A DNA stretch of 21,319 bases from a virus: positions 1 to 21,319 of the IMG/VR virus record IMGVR_UViG_3300008266_000608, one strand, 5' to 3'. Positions 604 to 8,316 of this stretch are shown here, in pieces (position 1 is the stretch's first letter; each line of letters starts with the position of its first letter). The notes beneath the pieces are model-generated. The model did not search any database. It saw nothing but the letters and a program-made list of their open reading frames with translations, and was not told where the DNA came from. A program made the translations under genes and the position numbers.

Positions 604-1648
604 ATTGCAAGTATTCAAGGGTGCATCTGGAAGTGGCGCAATTGCAGATTCTGCGCTGGCCTTGCAATATGATGCCACCACAACTTATGGCCGTCATTTC
701 ATGGATGGAAATGGGTTTTATCAGATATACGCACCAAGCGGCGGTGTGTCTGGTGGCAATTTAAGCCTGTGGGCTACAAACTCAGTTCAATTTCGCACTG
801 CCGGGGCTGCCGCCGATCCAGCAAAAATGACCCTCGACTCCAGCGGTAACTTGGGATTGGGTGTTACGCCTAGTGCTTGGAGTACGGCAAGTAGCACAAG
901 GGCTTTGCAGTTTGCGGGTGGTTCAGTTTGGTCTTACCTCACTGACCGAATTGCAATGATTCAAAACTCTTATCTTGATTCAGCAGGAAATTACAAATAC
1001 ATCAATACAGATGCGGCATCAATGTATCGACTTGCATCTGGTGTTCACGCATGGTTCAATGCCCCATCAGGTACAGCAGGTAACACTGTTACCTTCACCC
1101 AAGCAATGACCCTTGATGCAAGCGGTAACTTGCTGGTGGGGACTACAAGCACAACCCCAACAAATGGTGGTGTTGTATCACTTTTTGGTGGTGGAGAATC
1201 TTACTTAAATATAGGGCACAAAACTGGCGCAGCATCTGGCGCATATTATCTTGCTGGCTTCTACAATGGGTCATTAGTAGGTGGTTTAACGCAATCTGGA
1301 ACAACTGGTATTGTTTTAACAAACTTATCTGACTACCGCTTAAAAGATAAAGTGGTAACAATGCAAGGTTCGCTTGCAAAAGTGCTTGCATTAAATCCTG
1401 TGACCTATAAATGGAAGTCAGATGGTTCTGATGGTGAAGGTTTTATTGCACATGAACTGCAAACTGTAATTCCTACCGCCGCAACAGGTACGCAAGATGA
1501 AGTCGATGAAGAAGGTAATGCGAAATATCAAGGTATCAACTTGTCGGCTCTTGTTCCACATTTGGTAAAAGCCATCCAAGAACAACAAGCCCTCATAGTC
1601 AGTATGCGTGAAGAAATTGAGGCATTGAAAATCAAGGTGGGCGCATGA
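467..1648 (+). CDS. Tail fibre, downstream part with peptidase S74 intramolecular chaperone
   Basis: The frame is open from 467, but fibre-like sequence begins only near 548 (ASTINVGIGLSNATAKLQV). The first ~28 residues are an out-of-frame reading of the upstream fibre, so the 467 ATG is probably not a natural start. The body has fibre phrases such as DSSGNLGLGVTPSAW and MTLDASGNLLVGTT. From residue 288 comes the S74 domain: the autocleavage motif SDYRLK (codons 1328-1345) with Ser288 and Lys293, then NPVTYKWKSDG, GFIAHELQ and INLSALVPHLVKAIQEQQALI, ending in a coiled coil. In this family the C-terminal ~106 residues trimerise and fold the fibre, then cut themselves off at the Ser. The TGA stop at 1646-1648 overlaps the ATG of the HNH gene. 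S74 assignment is confident. Confidence 0.85.
   Translation: MMGRSLRLVLAALFLTLLLISIKIQTRLVIASTINVGIGLSNATAKLQVFKGASGSGAIADSALALQYDATTTYGRHFMDGNGFYQIYAPSGGVSGGNLSLWATNSVQFRTAGAAADPAKMTLDSSGNLGLGVTPSAWSTASSTRALQFAGGSVWSYLTDRIAMIQNSYLDSAGNYKYINTDAASMYRLASGVHAWFNAPSGTAGNTVTFTQAMTLDASGNLLVGTTSTTPTNGGVVSLFGGGESYLNIGHKTGAASGAYYLAGFYNGSLVGGLTQSGTTGIVLTNLSDYRLKDKVVTMQGSLAKVLALNPVTYKWKSDGSDGEGFIAHELQTVIPTAATGTQDEVDEEGNAKYQGINLSALVPHLVKAIQEQQALIVSMREEIEALKIKVGA
541..563 (+). other. Apparent frameshift inside the tail-fibre gene
   Basis: Fibre-like coding passes from frame 1 to frame 2 here. Before about 552 frame 1 reads DFYQDTNATR. After about 548 frame 2 reads VIASTINVGIG. Removing one base near 552-554 would join them as NATR-IASTINVGIG. 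There is no homopolymer run and no obvious slippery heptamer, so programmed frameshifting is not favoured. A mutation or an assembly error is likelier. Confidence 0.75.
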
Positions 1649-2166
1649 TTACCAAAGAGCGTTTGCATGAAATGTTTGAGTACAGGGATGGAATCCTGTA
1701 TCGAAAGGTAAGCCTTGGCAGAACCAAAGTTGGTGACAAAGTTGGTTTTGTAAATGACAAGGGTTATGTGGCTGTTAATATTGATAAACAGTGTATTGCT
1801 TTACATCGAATTATTTGGATGATGCAGTATGGCGAAATGCCAGCGTTAGTTGACCATGTTGATGGAAATCGTCAAAACAACAAGATAGAAAATTTGCGTT
1901 TGGCTGATAGATTTCAAAATGCCCACAACAAGCAAATGCACTCAAATAACACATCTGGAGTTAAAGGTGTGTATTGGCATCAAAAAGCAAAAAAGTGGAA
2001 GGCTCAAGTCTATTGTCATAACAAAAAATATGATTTAGGTCTTTTTGAAAATTTAGAAGATGCCGAAGAATTTGTTGGTCTTGCAAGAGATATGTTGCAT
2101 GGTCAATTTGCCAATCACGGCATCACCCAACTCACCGCCCGTATAACCGCTTTAGAAGGAGCATAA
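1645..2166 (+). CDS. HNH homing-type endonuclease with AP2-like DNA-binding domain
   Basis: The 173-residue product has the HNH_3-type core: LHRIIW (H54), then VDHVDGNRQNN (D70, H71, D73, N75) and KIENLR (N83). The core coordinates a metal and nicks or cuts DNA. Residues ~100-155 (NTSGVKGVYWHQKAKKWKAQV ... LGLFENLEDAEEFV) form an AP2/ERF-like DNA-binding module often fused to phage HNH nucleases. The ATG sits in an ATGA overlap with the fibre stop and has AAGGTGG just upstream, so translation is probably coupled. AP2-type HNH proteins usually end near the HGQFANHG phrase. Here about 14 more residues (ITQLTARITALEGA) follow and look like a fibre C-terminal coiled coil. The gene is AT-richer than its flanks. 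Likely a mobile selfish gene. Confidence 0.9.
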   Translation: MITKERLHEMFEYRDGILYRKVSLGRTKVGDKVGFVNDKGYVAVNIDKQCIALHRIIWMMQYGEMPALVDHVDGNRQNNKIENLRLADRFQNAHNKQMHSNNTSGVKGVYWHQKAKKWKAQVYCHNKKYDLGLFENLEDAEEFVGLARDMLHGQFANHGITQLTARITALEGA

Positions 2167-2169
2167 ATC

Positions 2170-2499
2170 ATGTCAACCATAGTCTGGAATGTATCTGCGT
2201 TAAATTGTTTGCCTCAATCAGAGGGGCAGACAGATGTGGTCATAGTTGCCCATTGGCAATGTAATGGAACTCAAGAGCAAGATGGGAAAACATACAACGG
2301 TAGTGTTTATTCCACCTGTTCATTTAACTACACTGGCGGCACTTTTGTGCCTTACAGCCAATTGACATTGAACGATGTGCTTGGCTGGATTTGGGCATCT
2401 GGTGTGGATAAGGAAGCTACAGAGGCGGCTGTTAACCAGCAGATTGCACAAGCTATCAACCCACCCGTGGTGAATTTACCGATTCCTTGGCTGGTGTAA
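2170..2499 (+). CDS. Small conserved phage protein, DUF7936-like
   Basis: The product is 109 residues with no signal peptide or membrane segment. It begins MSTIVWNVSALNCLPQ, continues with VVIVAHWQC, YNGSVYSTCSF and FVPYSQLTLNDVLGWIW, and ends with an Ala-rich helix and PPVVNLPIPWLV. This layout matches, from memory, a family of small proteins encoded beside phage tail-fibre genes (DUF7936-like). Its function is unknown. A fibre-associated or assembly role is only guilt by position. A strong Shine-Dalgarno sequence (GAAGGAG, 2155-2161) lies 8 nt before the ATG, inside the last codons of the HNH gene. Its last 44 bp overlap the convergent GIY-YIG gene. A near copy of its terminal codons occurs at 3269-3298. 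Confidence 0.75.
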   Translation: MSTIVWNVSALNCLPQSEGQTDVVIVAHWQCNGTQEQDGKTYNGSVYSTCSFNYTGGTFVPYSQLTLNDVLGWIWASGVDKEATEAAVNQQIAQAINPPVVNLPIPWLV

Positions 2500-3256
2500 T
2501 GTACCGCCATGTGTACCCATAGGCAGTTTTCATGACCCCTCTGCACACTTTGCTTATTTGTGAGTTGTTCCCACATCCCAGTGTGGAGCGCAACCATTCT
2601 GCGGCAAGTGTGCAAGTCCCGAAAACTTTGCCCGTTTCAATACACATGACTGCTTTTGCTTGTACATGGGCGGCTCGTTTGTCTGGAGTATTAAATCGTT
2701 CTAAGGCTTTTTTGCTTGCAAGTTTACGTGCTTCAGGGTTAGAAAAATATTTGATAGTGTTTTGCCGAGTCTTTTCTATTTCTTCTGGATTAGAAAATCG
2801 TTTTAAAGCAATTACACGTAATTTTTCTTTAACTTCAGGTCGATTCATTACAAGCAATTGCCTGTCTAAATGCGCTTGTCTATATTCTGGATTGGCAAAT
2901 CGTTCTTTGGCTTTGGCGCTTAAATTGTTGCGCCATTTGTCAGACCATCGTTGTTCAAAATGTTTTTGCTTGGTTTCCTCTGTAATGGTAAAGCCAGATG
3001 CTCCCTCACCCCCGTTGGTGCGGTTGCAAAGGCCATGGTCGCTGTACTTCAAAATTAACTCGCACTCAAGCTCAAAAGCCCACCATTCTTGCATTCCTGT
3101 TTGTACAATCTCAATGGTGTAGCCATGTTTATTCACAATGTTTTGCCAATGTTGAGATCGATTCCAGAGCGACTTGTGTCTGTATCTGCAACCTTTCCCA
3201 ACATAAAACACTTTTCCATTGGAGGCTCTTCGATGAAGATAAACAAAAAAATTCAT
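2456..3256 (-). CDS. GIY-YIG homing-type endonuclease with NUMOD-like modules
   Basis: The 266-residue product starts with a GIY-YIG nuclease domain: FVYLH (residues 4-8) and VFYVGKG (16-22) are the two signature strands. Arg24/Arg26 and a Glu in FELECELI (61-68) are candidate catalytic residues, and NGGEGASG (81-88) is the usual closing loop. Residues ~105-195 repeat short helical units around RFANPEYR, RFSNPEEI, YFSNPEAR and RFNTPDKR, like the NUMOD3 DNA-binding repeats. Residues ~203-252 (CIETGKVFGTCTLAAEWL ... SQISKVCRG ... YGYTWRY) resemble NUMOD1/IENR1. The module ends at TWRY, almost exactly at the DUF7936-like stop. The last 14 residues are read antisense to that gene. No good ribosome-binding site precedes the ATG. 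It is AT-rich and opposes every neighbour, which suits a recently arrived mobile endonuclease. Confidence 0.9.
   Translation of the reverse strand: MNFFVYLHRRASNGKVFYVGKGCRYRHKSLWNRSQHWQNIVNKHGYTIEIVQTGMQEWWAFELECELILKYSDHGLCNRTNGGEGASGFTITEETKQKHFEQRWSDKWRNNLSAKAKERFANPEYRQAHLDRQLLVMNRPEVKEKLRVIALKRFSNPEEIEKTRQNTIKYFSNPEARKLASKKALERFNTPDKRAAHVQAKAVMCIETGKVFGTCTLAAEWLRSTLGCGNNSQISKVCRGVMKTAYGYTWRYITPAKESVNSPRVG
2485..2500. repeat. Left copy of a 16-bp imperfect direct repeat flanking the GIY-YIG gene
   Basis: CCTTGGCTGGTGTAAT here matches CCTTGGCTGGCATAAT at 3284-3299 in 14 of 16 positions. It encodes PWLV-stop, the end of the DUF7936-like protein. The two copies bracket the GIY-YIG gene. 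Confidence 0.7.
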
Positions 3257-3283
3257 GGGTGTGATTCTATCACCCCACCTCTG

Positions 3284-3299
3284 CCTTGGCTGGCATAAT
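3284..3299. repeat. Right copy of the 16-bp direct repeat; displaced end of the DUF7936-like gene
   Basis: This copy lies beyond the GIY-YIG start codon. Read on the plus strand from 3269 it gives ITPPLPWLA-stop, which parallels NLPIPWLV-stop at the left copy. It looks like the original 3' end of the small gene, cut off when the endonuclease inserted. Confidence 0.65.
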
Positions 3300-3305
3300 T
3301 AAAAA

Positions 3306-3324
3306 AGGGCAACCCGCTGGCCCT
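3306..3324 (-). terminator. Possible rho-independent terminator for minus-strand transcription
   Basis: AGGGC at 3306-3310 pairs perfectly with GCCCT at 3320-3324 around a 9-nt loop. On the minus strand the stem runs into six T residues (complement of 3301-3306). The stem is short and it lies upstream of the only minus-strand gene, so it would block stray leftward transcription rather than end a known transcript. It may be fortuitous. Confidence 0.3.
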
Positions 3325-3349
3325 GACAGCGGTAACTATGGAGCAACTT

Positions 3350-3526
3350 ATGAACGACAAGAAAATTGAATTGACATTGGGCCTTGTGAATGCCGTTATG
3401 CAGTATTTGGGTACACGCCCCTATGCTGAAGTGGCTGACATGATCCAAGCTATTCGTGAGCAAGCCATTCCTCAAGTGCCAATGCCTGAAGAAGCCAAGC
3501 CTGCGGAGCAGCCATTGATCCAATAA
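3350..3526 (+). CDS. Small phage protein of unknown function
   Basis: The product is 58 residues: MNDKKIELTLGLVNAVMQYL, then GTRPYAEVADMIQAIREQA and a Pro/Glu-rich tail. It looks like two short amphipathic helices and has no membrane segment or known motif. I chose the ATG at 3350 because GGAG (3340-3343) lies 6 nt upstream. An in-frame ATG at 3338 would add four residues but has no such site. Similar short proteins with an NAVMQYLGTRPY-like phrase occur in phage genomes, from memory. Function is not known. It is followed, with overlap, by the membrane protein that seems to start at 3514. Confidence 0.65.
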   Translation: MNDKKIELTLGLVNAVMQYLGTRPYAEVADMIQAIREQAIPQVPMPEEAKPAEQPLIQ

Positions 3527-4083
3527 CTGCATTTGCCCTGTGTAAAGGGGCATATGAAGGCATAAAGGGCTGCATCAGCGTTTACCAAGACCTGAAGAAA
3601 ACCGGGTCTGATCTGACAAAGATCACAGGTGAAGTTGGTACAGCCCTTTCGAGTTTTTTCAAAGGCCACGCAGAGTTGGAGGCCAGCCATGAGAAGGCTC
3701 AGTACCAGCGTGAAGAGAACCAAAAGAAGGGGATCAAAGACGATCTTGCCACACAAGCCATAGACAACGTGATGTATCTGCGGCAGACCAAGCAGTTCTA
3801 TGCCGATCTTGAGAGAATGGTGCGCTGGGAGATGGGTCAACCTGATCTCTGGCGTGAGATTGTTGAAGAGTATCAAAAGCTGTTGGATCAGAAATCGGAG
3901 CAAGCGGCACGGGAGTTGCACGAAAAGCGGGTGAAGGCATGGCGGCGACAAAGGTTAAAAAATCAGATACTGGACAGGGTTTTGGAAACGGTGCTGGTGG
4001 TTTTCGTAATCGGATACCTGATATGCCTAATGTGGATAATCAGTCTTCATCATCGGGGTCGTTTGGATACCTTTTTGTCTTGA
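3514..4083 (+). CDS. Conserved phage membrane protein, apparent AUU start
   Basis: The frame is open from 3490 to 4083. It has no ATG, GTG or TTG before 3676, yet convincing protein starts earlier: IDPITAFALCKGAYEGIKG at about 3514, then SVYQDLKKTGSDLTKITGEV. Cyanophage and pelagiphage relatives, as I recall them, begin M(I)DP.(S/T)A and share the later part: TQAIDNVMYLRQTKQFYADL, PDLWREIVEEYQ, a Lys/Arg-rich helix and one C-terminal membrane segment (VLETVLVVFVIGYLICLMW). ATT at 3514 has GGAG (3505-3508) 5 nt upstream and gives 189 residues. The conventional alternative, TTG at 3676, would delete about 54 conserved-looking residues. Function is unknown. Its position before the holin suggests a membrane or lysis role. 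The 3' end overlaps the next gene by up to 145 nt. Confidence 0.75.
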   Translation: MDPITAFALCKGAYEGIKGCISVYQDLKKTGSDLTKITGEVGTALSSFFKGHAELEASHEKAQYQREENQKKGIKDDLATQAIDNVMYLRQTKQFYADLERMVRWEMGQPDLWREIVEEYQKLLDQKSEQAARELHEKRVKAWRRQRLKNQILDRVLETVLVVFVIGYLICLMWIISLHHRGRLDTFLS

Positions 4084-4244
4084 TCCTGTTTGCGCTGGTC
4101 TTTGTGCTAATGATCCCTCTGGTGGGGATGCTGTATGTGGACACGATGGTGGTGAAGCGCGAAGCCAAGGCTCAAATGGAAAAAGTGGAAAAGCTGCGTA
4201 AGCAGGTTGAAGAAGATGCCAAACGAGAAGCCGAACCCAGATGA
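3939..4244 (+). CDS. Small single-pass membrane protein
   Basis: The product is 101 residues with three parts: a Gly/Ser-rich N-terminus, one strong membrane segment (FGYLFVLILFALVFVLMIPL, then VGMLYVD), and a charged C-terminal coiled coil (KREAKAQMEKVEKLRKQVEE). Small TM-plus-coil proteins of this shape occur in the same block of phage genomes, and a holin-like or spanin-like role is possible but unproven. From the 3939 ATG it overlaps the preceding gene by 145 nt. An in-frame ATG at 4023 (MPNVDNQSSSS) would cut the overlap to 61 nt and keep the membrane segment. Neither start has a strong ribosome-binding site, so the N-terminus is uncertain. It overlaps the following gene by 29 nt. Confidence 0.65.
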   Translation: MAATKVKKSDTGQGFGNGAGGFRNRIPDMPNVDNQSSSSGSFGYLFVLILFALVFVLMIPLVGMLYVDTMVVKREAKAQMEKVEKLRKQVEEDAKREAEPR

Positions 4245-4833
4245 CACCTTGAGCAAGGTGCTGGCCTATGTGGACAGCCCATTCAAGCTAATCGCCATCC
4301 TGGTGATGGGGGTGGTAACGTTTACAGGGTATTTTCTTTGGCAGAACCAAGAATTGTTGGTGGGGGCATACCGGGAGAACCAGAAGATGCCCTCCATTGC
4401 AGAAGACAGAATTGAGGATGCGGCGTCACACCTGTTCAAGCATACTGGGGCAGTGGTTGTGGCAGTGTTCAAGGTCAACCCCATGTTTGGCACACGGGTG
4501 CTACACAGAGCCTACACAAAGGAAGGCCGGGACAAGATTAATGACGGGCTGGATGTTGGGCTGTTTACATCCAATGCAGCCAACAACAGGGATGTGGTGG
4601 CGCTGATGGCAGGAGAGATAACCTGCGGAAGCTACACCCAAGCGCAGAGTGAGATTGGCCTTTGGTACATTGAGAAGGGAATGACCTTTGGGTGTAGAGT
4701 GGGTGTGCCGCCTGATCCAAGCAGGTTCATTGGACAGATTACCGTTGGATGGGCCGAACAGCCAGAAGACATGGAGAAGATTAACAACCTGCTGCTCATA
4801 GCGGCAACAATGCTTTCAAGGAGTAAACAGTAA
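4216..4833 (+). CDS. Conserved phage membrane-anchored protein of unknown function
   Basis: The product is 205 residues. A short charged head and YVDSPFKL precede one membrane segment (IAILVMGVVTFTGYFLW). A soluble domain follows with AASHLFKHTGAVVVAVFKVN, RDKINDGLDVGLF, DVVALMAGEITCGSY, IEKGMTFGCRVGVPPDP and FIGQITVGW. I recognise this set from cyanophage and pelagiphage genomes, where it is strongly conserved and unassigned. The VAVF/GQITVGW framing resembles a GAF- or PAS-like sensor fold, but that is a guess. Two cysteines (TCGSY, FGCRV) could form a disulphide if the domain is periplasmic. I chose ATG 4216. A TTG at 4207 would add three residues. The stop overlaps the next ATG (TAATG). 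Confidence 0.75.
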   Translation: MPNEKPNPDDTLSKVLAYVDSPFKLIAILVMGVVTFTGYFLWQNQELLVGAYRENQKMPSIAEDRIEDAASHLFKHTGAVVVAVFKVNPMFGTRVLHRAYTKEGRDKINDGLDVGLFTSNAANNRDVVALMAGEITCGSYTQAQSEIGLWYIEKGMTFGCRVGVPPDPSRFIGQITVGWAEQPEDMEKINNLLLIAATMLSRSKQ

Positions 4834-5348
4834 TGCTGACCCTATTTTCAACCCTGATCTCTTTCCTGATGGGTGGCTTGCCCAAGTTGCTGGAGTTCTT
4901 CCAAGACCGCAGCGACAAGAAGCATGAGATGGCCCTGGCCCAGCTTCAGATTCAGCGGGAGTTAGAAATGCGAAAACTGGGCTTTGAAGCCCAGGAGCGG
5001 GTTGAGCATATCAAGTCAGAGCAACTGGAGATGGAAACCAAATCCAATGAGAAGCAAGCCCTGATTGGCGCTCAACAGGCTGAGATGCAGGCCATATACG
5101 CCCACGACACTAGCTTAAACGAGGGCACAAGCACCTGGATGAAGAATCTGAGGGCATCGGTACGCCCGGTCATCACCTACGGCTTCTTCCTGCTTCTGGT
5201 GGGCATTGACTGTGCCTTGATCTGGCATGGCTTCACCAACAGCGTAAGCTTTGCGGAAATGGCAAACCAACTGTGGGATGACGAAACCCAGGCTCTGTTC
5301 GCGGCCATAATAAGCTTCCATTTTGGTGGCAGGGCGTTTGGCAAATGA
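4833..5348 (+). CDS. Holin-like membrane protein (TM / coiled coil / TM)
   Basis: The product is 171 residues. It begins with a short hydrophobic segment (LFSTLISFLMGGLPKLL), continues with a long charged coiled coil from ~25 to ~95 (KKHEMALAQLQIQRELEMRK ... AQQAEMQAIY), then RASVRPVITYGFFLLLVGID as a second membrane segment, and ends LWDDETQALFAAIISFHFGG RAFGK with a third hydrophobic stretch. This is the plan of the 3-TM holin/GTA-holin type proteins, which make the membrane lesion that lets endolysin reach the wall. It sits directly before the lysozyme gene with an ATGA overlap, the usual holin-endolysin order. A strong AAGGAG lies just upstream of its ATG. The family name is from pattern and position. 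Pore activity is inferred. Confidence 0.75.
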   Translation: MLTLFSTLISFLMGGLPKLLEFFQDRSDKKHEMALAQLQIQRELEMRKLGFEAQERVEHIKSEQLEMETKSNEKQALIGAQQAEMQAIYAHDTSLNEGTSTWMKNLRASVRPVITYGFFLLLVGIDCALIWHGFTNSVSFAEMANQLWDDETQALFAAIISFHFGGRAFGK

Positions 5349-5821
5349 ACGTCAGCCCCAAGGCTTGCGAGGTCATCCGCCACCACGAAGGTGTGCGGTA
5401 CAGGCCGTATCGTTGCCCAGCGGCGCTTTGGACGATTGGCGTGGGCCATGTTCTGTACCCCGAACAAGCCAAGATACCAATGGCCGAGCGCATGAACTTC
5501 CCCCTGCGCCCGGAAGACAATCGTGTATGGACAAAGGATGAGGTGGATGCAATACTTAAAGCTGATCTTGCTAGGTTTGAGAAGGGAGTGGCAACTTATT
5601 GCCCTGTTCCTCTTACTCAAGGAATGTTTGATGCGCTGGTTTCATTTTCATTCAATGTAGGGCTAGGAACTTTGCAACGCAGCACACTGCGATCCAAGCT
5701 AAACCGAGGTGATAAAGCGGGTGCTGCGGAGGAGCTATTGAAATACTGCCTGGGAGGTGGGAAAATACTCAAAGGGCTGCAAAATCGGCGTATCGATGAA
5801 CGAGCCATGTTCTTGTCATAA
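5345..5821 (+). CDS. Endolysin, GH24 (T4-type) lysozyme
   Basis: The product is 158 residues, the normal length for a single-domain GH24 muramidase, which cuts the MurNAc-GlcNAc bond of peptidoglycan. The active site is clear: HHEGVRYRPYRC...LWTIGVGH, with Glu15, Cys24 and Thr30 at T4 lysozyme spacing (Glu11, Asp20, Thr26). Cys in place of Asp is a known natural variant, as in the P1 Lyz group. The rest matches the family: LTQGMFDALVSFSFNVGLG and a C-terminal GLQNRRIDERAMFL. There is no signal peptide or N-terminal membrane anchor, so export should depend on the holin encoded directly upstream. The ATG overlaps the holin stop. Confidence in the family is high. Confidence 0.95.
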   Translation: MNVSPKACEVIRHHEGVRYRPYRCPAALWTIGVGHVLYPEQAKIPMAERMNFPLRPEDNRVWTKDEVDAILKADLARFEKGVATYCPVPLTQGMFDALVSFSFNVGLGTLQRSTLRSKLNRGDKAGAAEELLKYCLGGGKILKGLQNRRIDERAMFLS

Positions 5822-5829
5822 GGTCAATC

Positions 5830-8316
5830 ATGCCACTCAAAAAACTTCTGCTCCGCCCCGGTGTAAATAAGGAGAACACCCGTTACACCAGCGAGAACGG
5901 CTGGTATGACTGTGACAAGATTCGCTTTCGCCAAGGTACGCCAGAGAAGATCGGTGGCTGGACGCAAATATCTGCGCAAAAGTTTCTTGGTGTGTGCCGA
6001 TCCTTGTGGGCCTGGGTCACACTTGGCGCACAACAACTGCTAGGCGTAGGTACAAATTTAAAGTTTTACATTGAAAGCGGCGGTTTTTACTACGATATAA
6101 CCCCGCTCAATCAAACCAACACGCTGACCAACCCGTTTGCTATGGTGAGTGGATCGTCCACAGTAACGGTCACTGATGCAAACGGCGGGTACTCAAACAA
6201 CAATTATGTAACCTTCACGGGCTCATCGTCCAATGGTGGAATTACTTTGCTGGGGGAGTATCTTCTAACCTCCGGCACCACGGCCAATACTTACACCGTG
6301 CCGGTTCAATCGGAAGCTTCAATCTCTATTGCTGGTAACGTTTCCATTGCTGCCGGATCTTTTGTGATTGGTAATTCGTACAGCATCACATTTGTAGGAA
6401 CCACTGACTTCACGCTAATTGGCGCGTCAGCCAATACTGTTGGTGTAGCGTTTATCGCTACGGGCGCTGGATCTGGTACTGGGACGGCTAAAGCAAACAC
6501 TGTTTTTGCAACGCAGTTTCAGCTTGCCAACAATGTCCAGGTGACGTTAACTACCACAGGTACGCTTCCTGCTCCGTATGTAGCTGGAACAACTTACTAC
6601 GTTATTGCCACATCCGGCTATACATTTAGTCTGTCTTTGACCTCTGGCGGGGCTGCAATTGATTCCACGGGATCAACTCAATCGGGGATTTGCACGGTAA
6701 CGGCTAAAGCTTCTTCTTCTGCCACGGGTGGCGGCACTGTTCGGGCGGCTTATCAAATAGCTACAGGCGCTGCATACGCTGCTGCGGTTGTGGGATGGGG
6801 CGCGGGAACGTGGGGGTCTGGAGCCTGGGGCATAGGAACGGAATCGCAACAAACATTCCGTATGTGGAGTCAAAGTAACTTTGGCGAGGATCTTATCTTT
6901 GGCCCAAGTGGCGGCGGGATTTACTACTGGGATGCCTCTTTTGGATTGACCGGGACAACATTCACCGTAACGATTGCTACGCCAGCAGTGTTGTCTACGT
7001 CCATTACATTGGCAGATGGCATGGCAATTATTCTGACTACAACGGGGGCACTGCCTACTGGATTGAACGTGGGTCAGGTGTACTACGTCATCAATTCATC
7101 GGGAACCTCGTGTAATTTGTCTGCTACCTATGGTGGATCTGCCATAGCTACCACCGGATCACAATCAGGGGTTCATAAGATCTCCTCCAGGGCCATAGCT
7201 TTGGAGGATTACGGTGGCGCAACCGATGTGCCGATTACCCAAAACTACATATTGGTATCCGATTCCAGCCGGTTTGTGTTTGCTTTTGGGGCCACGGAGT
7301 ATGGATCAGCGACATTCAATCCAATGCTTATCCGCTGGTCAGACCAGGGAGATCCATTTAATTGGACGCCAAGCCCCACTGTAGAAGCTGGATTTACCTA
7401 CCTTTCTCACGGCTCGGAGATCGTAACCGCCATGCAGGCCCGTCAAGAAATCTTGGTGTGGACAGACTCATCCATCTATTCTCTACAGTATGTGGGTGCC
7501 CCCAATGTATGGGCACCTCAAATCGTTGGGGATAACACTTCAATTGCCTCTGAGAATGCAGTGGCATACGCTAACGGCGTGGCGTACTGGATGGGCGTGG
7601 ACAAGTTTTACAAATATGATGGACGCACCCAAACACAGAACTGCGATTTGCGGCAGTATGTGTTTTCAAACATCAATAAAAGTCAACTTACCCAGGTTTT
7701 AGCCGGATCAAATGAGGGCTTCAACGAGATTTGGTGGTTCTACTGCTCGGGCACAAGCACCAATATTGACAGCTATGTGGTGTTTAACTATGCAGAAAAC
7801 CAGGGTCAAGGCTGCTGGTACTACGGGTCAATGGCCCGGACGGCATGGCTAGATAGTGGATTGCGGGACTACCCAATCGCAGCCACCTATGACCTCAATG
7901 TGGTAAACCACGAGCAAGGCGTAGACGATAACACTACGCCGGTAACGTTACCAATTGAGGCGTTCATTACTTCTGCTGAATTTGACCTTGAAGATGGTGA
8001 CAAGTTTGGGTTTATTTGGCGTGTGGTGCCTGACATTACGTTCAGGGGATCTACTGCGGCTAGCCCACAGGTGACGATGTATCTCAAGCCCATGCAAAAC
8101 TCAGGCTCTGGGTATAACAGCCCAGCCTCCGTGGGCGGTGAAAACAATGCCACAGTTACCAGAACGGCCATACTTCCCATAGAAGAATTTACTGGTCAGA
8201 TCTATACTCGCGTCAGAGGGAGGCAGATAGCTATGGAGGTTAGATCTACGGCAGCAGGCGTGACTTGGCAGCTTGGCTCACCACGTATTGACATCCGCCA
8301 GGACGGCAGACGTTAA
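5830..8316 (+). CDS. Large virion protein, P22 gp10-like head-tail stabilisation candidate
   Basis: The product is 828 residues and starts MPLKKLLLRPGVNKENTRYT, then WYDCDKIRFRQGTPEKIGGW, a start I recognise from many environmental phages. Beta-propeller-like strands follow: EILVWTDSSIYSLQYVG, AYANGVAYWMGVDKFYKYDG and EGFNEIWWFYCSG. The C-terminus (RVRGRQIAMEVRST, WQLGSPRIDIRQDG) resembles the end of P22 gp10-type plug proteins, which close the portal after packaging. Residues ~95-455 hold Ser/Thr/Gly-rich inserts, including a pair of similar beta modules (~238-290 and ~399-450). These make it much longer than P22 gp10 (about 470 residues). AAGG lies upstream of the ATG. The stop overlaps the next start. 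Virion location is likely; the gp10 assignment is tentative. Confidence 0.7.
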   Translation: MPLKKLLLRPGVNKENTRYTSENGWYDCDKIRFRQGTPEKIGGWTQISAQKFLGVCRSLWAWVTLGAQQLLGVGTNLKFYIESGGFYYDITPLNQTNTLTNPFAMVSGSSTVTVTDANGGYSNNNYVTFTGSSSNGGITLLGEYLLTSGTTANTYTVPVQSEASISIAGNVSIAAGSFVIGNSYSITFVGTTDFTLIGASANTVGVAFIATGAGSGTGTAKANTVFATQFQLANNVQVTLTTTGTLPAPYVAGTTYYVIATSGYTFSLSLTSGGAAIDSTGSTQSGICTVTAKASSSATGGGTVRAAYQIATGAAYAAAVVGWGAGTWGSGAWGIGTESQQTFRMWSQSNFGEDLIFGPSGGGIYYWDASFGLTGTTFTVTIATPAVLSTSITLADGMAIILTTTGALPTGLNVGQVYYVINSSGTSCNLSATYGGSAIATTGSQSGVHKISSRAIALEDYGGATDVPITQNYILVSDSSRFVFAFGATEYGSATFNPMLIRWSDQGDPFNWTPSPTVEAGFTYLSHGSEIVTAMQARQEILVWTDSSIYSLQYVGAPNVWAPQIVGDNTSIASENAVAYANGVAYWMGVDKFYKYDGRTQTQNCDLRQYVFSNINKSQLTQVLAGSNEGFNEIWWFYCSGTSTNIDSYVVFNYAENQGQGCWYYGSMARTAWLDSGLRDYPIAATYDLNVVNHEQGVDDNTTPVTLPIEAFITSAEFDLEDGDKFGFIWRVVPDITFRGSTAASPQVTMYLKPMQNSGSGYNSPASVGGENNATVTRTAILPIEEFTGQIYTRVRGRQIAMEVRSTAAGVTWQLGSPRIDIRQDGRR
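6541..7185 (+). repeat. Two divergent copies of a beta module inside the 828-residue protein
   Basis: Copy one (about 6541-6700) reads VTLTTTGTLPAPYVAGTTYYVI ... LTSGGAAIDSTGSTQSGICTV. Copy two (about 7024-7185) reads IILTTTGALPTGLNVGQVYYVI ... ATYGGSAIATTGSQSGVHKI. Both share T-T-T-G-x-L-P, YYVI, GG-A-I and TG-S-QSG at the same spacing. They are diverged at DNA level, so the duplication is old or both came from a common phage module. Confidence 0.65.

Follow-up and report, generated by a model that had tools for sequence, protein, structure and literature searches.

The window, the 21,319-base virus record that we analysed as a whole, carries an S74 tail-fibre gene ending at 1648 and a DUF7936 gene of 109 amino acids at 2170-2499 (Pfam PF25590, E 2.4e-20), both on the plus strand. 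A GIY-YIG endonuclease gene of 266 amino acids lies on the minus strand at 2456-3256 (PHROG 314 homing endonuclease, E 8.6e-18). The DUF7936 gene is interrupted by this insertion yet intact as a reading frame, and it now ends with a left, substitute tail, NLPIPWLV-stop (2473-2499, plus strand), delimited by alignment with the empty loci L003 and L008 and the filled loci L073, L082-L085 and L254 (L-numbers denote viral loci compared with the window). Comparison of filled sites places the right edge of the element, with the endonuclease leader, at 3257-3271 (minus strand). It is followed by a right copy of the gene ending, TPPLPWLA-stop (3272-3298, plus strand), which is detached from any gene and which we interpret below as the orphaned native DUF7936 3' end. 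The native downstream DNA (3299-3526, plus strand) comprises a CCGCTG...CAGCGG inverted repeat and then a 62-amino-acid ORF at 3338-3526; in empty relatives it continues directly from the DUF7936 gene end.

The sequence agrees with the initial annotation that the DUF7936 gene ends in NLPIPWLV-stop at 2499 and that ITPPLPWLA-stop is encoded in the same direction at 3269-3298, and the match of the 16-bp ends at 14 positions was borne out. The repeat itself stands; its length does not, since the repeated segment spans about 27-28 bp rather than 16. The annotation had also let the endonuclease's NUMOD-like domain end at TWRY, near the left repeat. The reading frame does not stop at TWRY: it crosses the left copy and continues for 14 codons, as far as 2456. 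The resulting overlap of the DUF7936 and endonuclease genes measures 44 bp (2456-2499), the sense strand encoding the DUF7936 end and the antisense strand the endonuclease C-terminus. Taken alone, the 16-bp repeat is weak evidence: when the window's flanks are locally aligned with each other an unrelated 11-bp match scores equally high, and DNA-level repeat detection at a single locus has little power, most known cases scoring as chance does. The repeat gains its weight from relatives, in which empty alleles join the left flank directly to the right flank.

Empty alleles and the origin of the two gene endings

A search with the DUF7936 protein provided 80 viral loci, and 392 loci with a DUF7936-related reading frame were recovered, a count that includes overlapping contigs. 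The empty allele anticipated by the initial annotation, running from about 2470 straight into about 3270, exists in L003, where the window's ~2472 is joined to its ~3272. L003 matches window positions 2174-2500 at 92.4% DNA identity (327 bp) and 3272-5867 at 94.7% (~2600 bp); the two matching blocks overlap by 28 bp with nothing in between, giving a net insert of 799 bp. The L003 DUF7936 gene ends VVTPPLPWLA-stop (TTAAAAAAGGGC), equal to the window's right copy plus downstream DNA. L004, L009, L013, L015, L017 and L020 likewise read ...LPWLA-stop (TTAAAAAAGGGCAACCCGCTGGCC). The net insert is also 799 bp for L082 against either L099 or L093, and 802 bp for L084 against L177, and presence and absence at one site in collinear relatives were found for the empty/filled pairs L003/window, L099/L082, L177/L084 and L260/L254.

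Relatives of the endonuclease are 62-67% identical in L082-L085 and 58% in L254, with partial copies in L073/L086 and L255, and every relative with readable flanks sits at a DUF7936 3' end in the orientation seen in the window. Six complete filled sites, namely the window and five with diverged DUF7936 genes, share one layout, with inserts of 799-802 bp where measured; the host DUF7936 genes are 47-59% identical to the window's and the endonucleases 62-80%. This recurrence bears on whether the window is a one-off chimera, in which simple recombination at similar ends joined by chance the gene and endonuclease of one phage to the right part of a second. These phages are mosaic, the window is closest to L001 on the left and to L017 at the right junction, and its tail is common to L008, all of which would suit such an origin. 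However, the same layout and insert size recur across the six sites, and L003 matches both window flanks at the identities given above. We therefore consider a chimera very unlikely, and for the family these comparisons leave simple recombination disfavoured.

The right copies and the DNA beyond them match empty relatives closely: 75/75 bases in the window (against L017, from CCTTGG on), 73/75 in L082, 97/100 in L083, 89/90 in L084, 77/83 in L085 and 77/78 in L254. A native C-terminal segment matching insert-less relatives thus lies downstream at 6/6 complete sites. The native endings on the right (WSSAPQTA, WATPSA, WQTA, WxTPxPATKP) are set against short left endings (WVA, WLA, WKS, WLV). The codon before Pro-Trp has T as its third base in 7/7 left endings versus 36/233 distinct empties, and this T combined with the absence of a Pro codon before it occurs in 6/7 left endings versus 7/233 empties (Fisher p 5e-8, relatedness ignored). 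Because these features are common among insertions and rare in empties, we take the core of the left ending to be element-borne. With the right copies native and the left copies foreign in these features, the comparison supports the proposal of the initial annotation that the insertion brought a substitute 3' end restoring DUF7936 and left the original end orphaned downstream. A foreign C-terminal segment that completes the host gene in frame was accordingly found, its length being uncertain in the window copy. In L082 and L083 the codons immediately upstream of the left-ending core still match empties (IQP, IMP), and L084 and L254 have a longer foreign tract (GTGAGYCYAAAACTTCC).

Two similar copies might also reflect a target-site duplication, in which a mobile element made a 16-28 bp staggered cut at the gene end and the left copy drifted later. 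The left and right copies are indeed alike, both with Pro-Trp, and in L082 and L085 the two edges are bordered on the outside by identical 7-8 bases (ATCCAGCC, TTCAACC). Yet over a 12-base core the left endings of most insertions agree with one another at 10-12 of 12 positions and with their own right copy at only 6-9 (the window's left copy is an exception, sharing 7-9 of the 12 with other left copies), and the right copies are still native beside short left tails (WVA, WLA, WKS). GIY-YIG homing is not known to make such duplications, which also counts against this origin. The sequences thus leave a target-site duplication disfavoured, and we judge it unlikely. A motif scan of 262 distinct loci found a true second tail copy in the 2.5 kb downstream only at endonuclease-bearing sites; other loci gave four hits, all by chance, and two filled sites either escaped the motif or lay outside the set.

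The left boundary in the window itself is uncertain. The empty phage L008 has the same NLPIPWL tail (L008:1411-1431), with 31 bp identical to the window's, and when the viral collection was scanned with 21 bases of this tail, a scan that may omit the window's own genome records, the L008 contig was the only hit. Given this identity, the foreign part in the window may amount to no more than the final codon plus the stop, and the left ending may be partly native; the element-borne part probably runs from TTCCTTGG (about 2484) onward and comprises at least GTGTAA. The NLPIPWL of L008 and the TPQLPWL of L015, both empties, would likewise fit a left tail that is native save for the final codon and stop (V-stop); on that reading the element would have entered at PWL and the right copy would have come with it. 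Against this, the right copy and 2.6 kb of downstream DNA form a single native block in empties, the nearest empties of L082, L083, L084 and L254 are of the right type save for a few Lys- or Glu-type alleles, and right copies vary between insertions together with their hosts, making an element-borne right copy highly improbable.

Under the preferred reading, with the substitute ending on the left, L008 may be a footprint that recombination of one copy with the other left behind; alternatively, this ending may already have been present in the window's recipient. The empties L008, L015 and L080 agree in their last codons with the left tails of the window, L073 and L254, respectively, over 15-31 bp and then revert to a native ending; TPQLPWL is common to the empties L015/L017 and the filled L073, and PKLPW to L080 and the filled L254. 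These endings are suggestive of footprints of lost elements, or may simply be native alleles; several empties of the L253 clade have Lys at the same position as PKLPW of L254. L274, L275 and L293 have TPKLPWQTA endings with downstream DNA as in the filled L254, a Lys-type tail on a native end with no endonuclease.

The endonuclease and its antisense overlap

The endonuclease is laid out as a GIY-YIG domain (about residues 1-90), helical repeats (about 93-196) and a NUMOD1-like C-terminal domain (about 201-252). It bears a VYL...FYVGKG motif, and Y6, Y18, R26, E64 and N78 are invariant across eight relatives; catalytic roles are predicted for these residues from their positions. Pfam and NCBIfam returned no usable domain call for this protein, and no solved structure matched it by sequence. 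An AlphaFold2 model (mean pLDDT 75) places the GIY-YIG domain at the N-terminus; the pTM of 0.33 makes the domain arrangement in the model unreliable. The best Foldseek matches of the model are the GIY-YIG nucleases PD-T4-3 and the UvrC domain (probability 1.00, E 0.01-0.06; UvrC 0.025), and an I-HmuI chain was matched at probability 0.99. The predicted structure is that of a GIY-YIG fold in which the characteristic Tyr, Arg, Glu and Asn residues are present.

Across relatives pN is 0.14-0.31 and pS 0.66-0.84, giving pN/pS of about 0.2-0.45 with synonymous sites near saturation, a pattern that indicates purifying selection on the protein. A scan of genome contigs returned no endonuclease relatives. 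Isolated phages hold distant relatives that are annotated as homing endonucleases; at eight such GIY-YIG genes a protein-level tail test of moderate power found no tail duplication (the same test was clear for L316, L082 and L254, marginal for the window and L083, and missed L084). A TATAAT-like stretch lies a few bases before the endonuclease start, TATAATC in L083, L084 and L085 and TAGAATC in the window (within 3257-3271), and could yield a nearly leaderless transcript.

It is the last 14 endonuclease residues that lie antisense to the DUF7936 tail, an extension whose first residues are conserved in relatives. The C-terminus contains TPAKES in the window and is of PxKEV type in relatives, antisense over the host's xLPWxx-stop. 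The T characteristic of left endings is synonymous for Leu in the sense frame and sets a Glu in the endonuclease frame, a Glu kept in 7/7 cases. We infer that the overlap is under selection on both strands.

Similar layouts at DUF7936 and S74 genes

A second GIY-YIG case occurs in L316 and L317, which are identical to each other over 4.3 kb (the case lies at L316:3001-4200). The endonuclease is 26% identical to that of the window and co-directional with its distant DUF7936 gene, which ends PPVSPQNTPLPWA-stop. The last residues of the endonuclease read ITPPVSPENTPLPWAA-stop, and the DNA after it is of native type, homologous to L319 and L326. By this comparison the orphaned native DUF7936 ending serves as the predicted C-terminus of the endonuclease itself.

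The window holds a further example immediately upstream. An HNH-AP2 endonuclease gene (1645-2166, plus strand; Pfam HNH_3, E 2.2e-14) begins with a start codon that overlaps the S74 stop, and the S74 gene ends QEQQALIVSMREEIEALKIKVGA-stop, within a putative substitute 3' end (VSMREEIEALKIKVGA-stop; 1597-1648, plus strand) recognised by comparison with L002. At this empty site of L002 the S74 gene reads QEQQALITQLTARITALEGA-stop and is followed directly by DUF7936, so that the net HNH insert is 527 bp. The orphaned native S74 tail (ITQLTARITALEGA; 2122-2163, plus strand) is fused in frame to the HNH C-terminus; the same 14 residues, ITQLTARITALEGA, identically end the S74 gene in L002, L022, L024 and others, and among the HNH relatives listed the best align only to residue 159-168 of 173. 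Sequence comparison thus places the window's HNH gene in the S74 3' end in a layout like that of the GIY-YIG case, represented by a single filled copy. In L003, L004, L005, L017 and L056 the stretch between an S74-type end and the DUF7936 start is occupied directly by other HNH genes (about 38-44% identity to that of the window), with no obvious duplicated tail at these five; their presence suggests that this border is a repeated target.

A proposed homing cassette and its known counterparts

Gene layout, empty alleles, native right copies, foreign features of the left copies and selection on the endonuclease together make it very probable that the window contains a free-standing GIY-YIG homing cassette of ~800 bp, which targets DUF7936 3' ends in several phage lineages and carries a replacement ending. 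Such a cassette would bring the last codons of the gene that it enters, xLPWxx-stop in about 20-27 bp, whose opposite strand would encode the last residues of the endonuclease. The endonuclease would cut empty alleles near the conserved CCnCTGCCnTGG end, and break repair would copy the cassette into the cut allele. On insertion the carried ending would complete the DUF7936 gene, leaving the native ending orphaned downstream, and would both keep the gene working and render the site uncuttable. In these terms the insertion would be nearly harmless and the endonuclease a homing one, as the initial annotation had called them, both inferences from sequence.

Putative carried endings were seen with GIY-YIG genes of both orientations at DUF7936 and with an HNH gene at S74. 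More tentatively, and with somewhat less than even confidence, we suggest that carrying a 3' end is a strategy which phage endonucleases have evolved repeatedly and independently, with the antisense segment selected for both ends, and that loss of the element may leave a changed, possibly cut-resistant ending (L008, L015, L080). These cases suggest that an endonuclease gene with neither intron nor intein can invade phage coding sequence without breaking the gene. They also carry a warning for annotation: what looks like a difference at the C-terminus, or a small gene end left orphaned, can be the footprint of an endonuclease gene. The phage setting makes cleavage, homing and fitness cost measurable.

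Among phage systems, T4 SegA-SegG resemble the window's endonuclease in joining a GIY-YIG nuclease to a DNA-binding C-terminus, in being free-standing and in being absent from relatives; unlike the cassette, Seg genes sit between conserved genes, according to passages of a review on T4 endonucleases (PMC2988022). Those passages describe split genes (Aeh1 nrdA, split gene 43) with no carried 3' end, and the string 'duplicat' is absent from the text of the review (PMC2988022). Group I introns with GIY-YIG endonucleases such as I-TevI are similar in making an insertion in coding sequence harmless. A group I intron was rejected here: unlike at I-TevI-type introns, Rfam detected no intron RNA at 1500-3700, and splicing is not needed because the DUF7936 frame is complete, at 2499, before the rest of the endonuclease gene.

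The literature searched held no phage precedent for a carried 3' end, and the counterparts to this strategy that we found reported were only in fungal mitochondria. There, mobile ORFs with a carried C-terminus occur in atp6 of Allomyces macrogynus and in atp6, atp9, cox2 and nad3 of Glomus (PMC3630166). As in the phage loci, the gene concerned has a homing-type endonuclease (GIY-YIG in atp9) in its 3' end and is completed by a foreign C-terminus, and its native end, closely matching insert-less relatives, is found downstream (PMC3630166). The carried part is about 51-238 bp in the fungal elements (PMC3630166) and about 20-27 bp in the phage cassette. Unlike the fungal elements, the window's endonuclease points the opposite way, its carried ending is antisense to its own last codons, and the hosts are phages, the target being a small phage gene.
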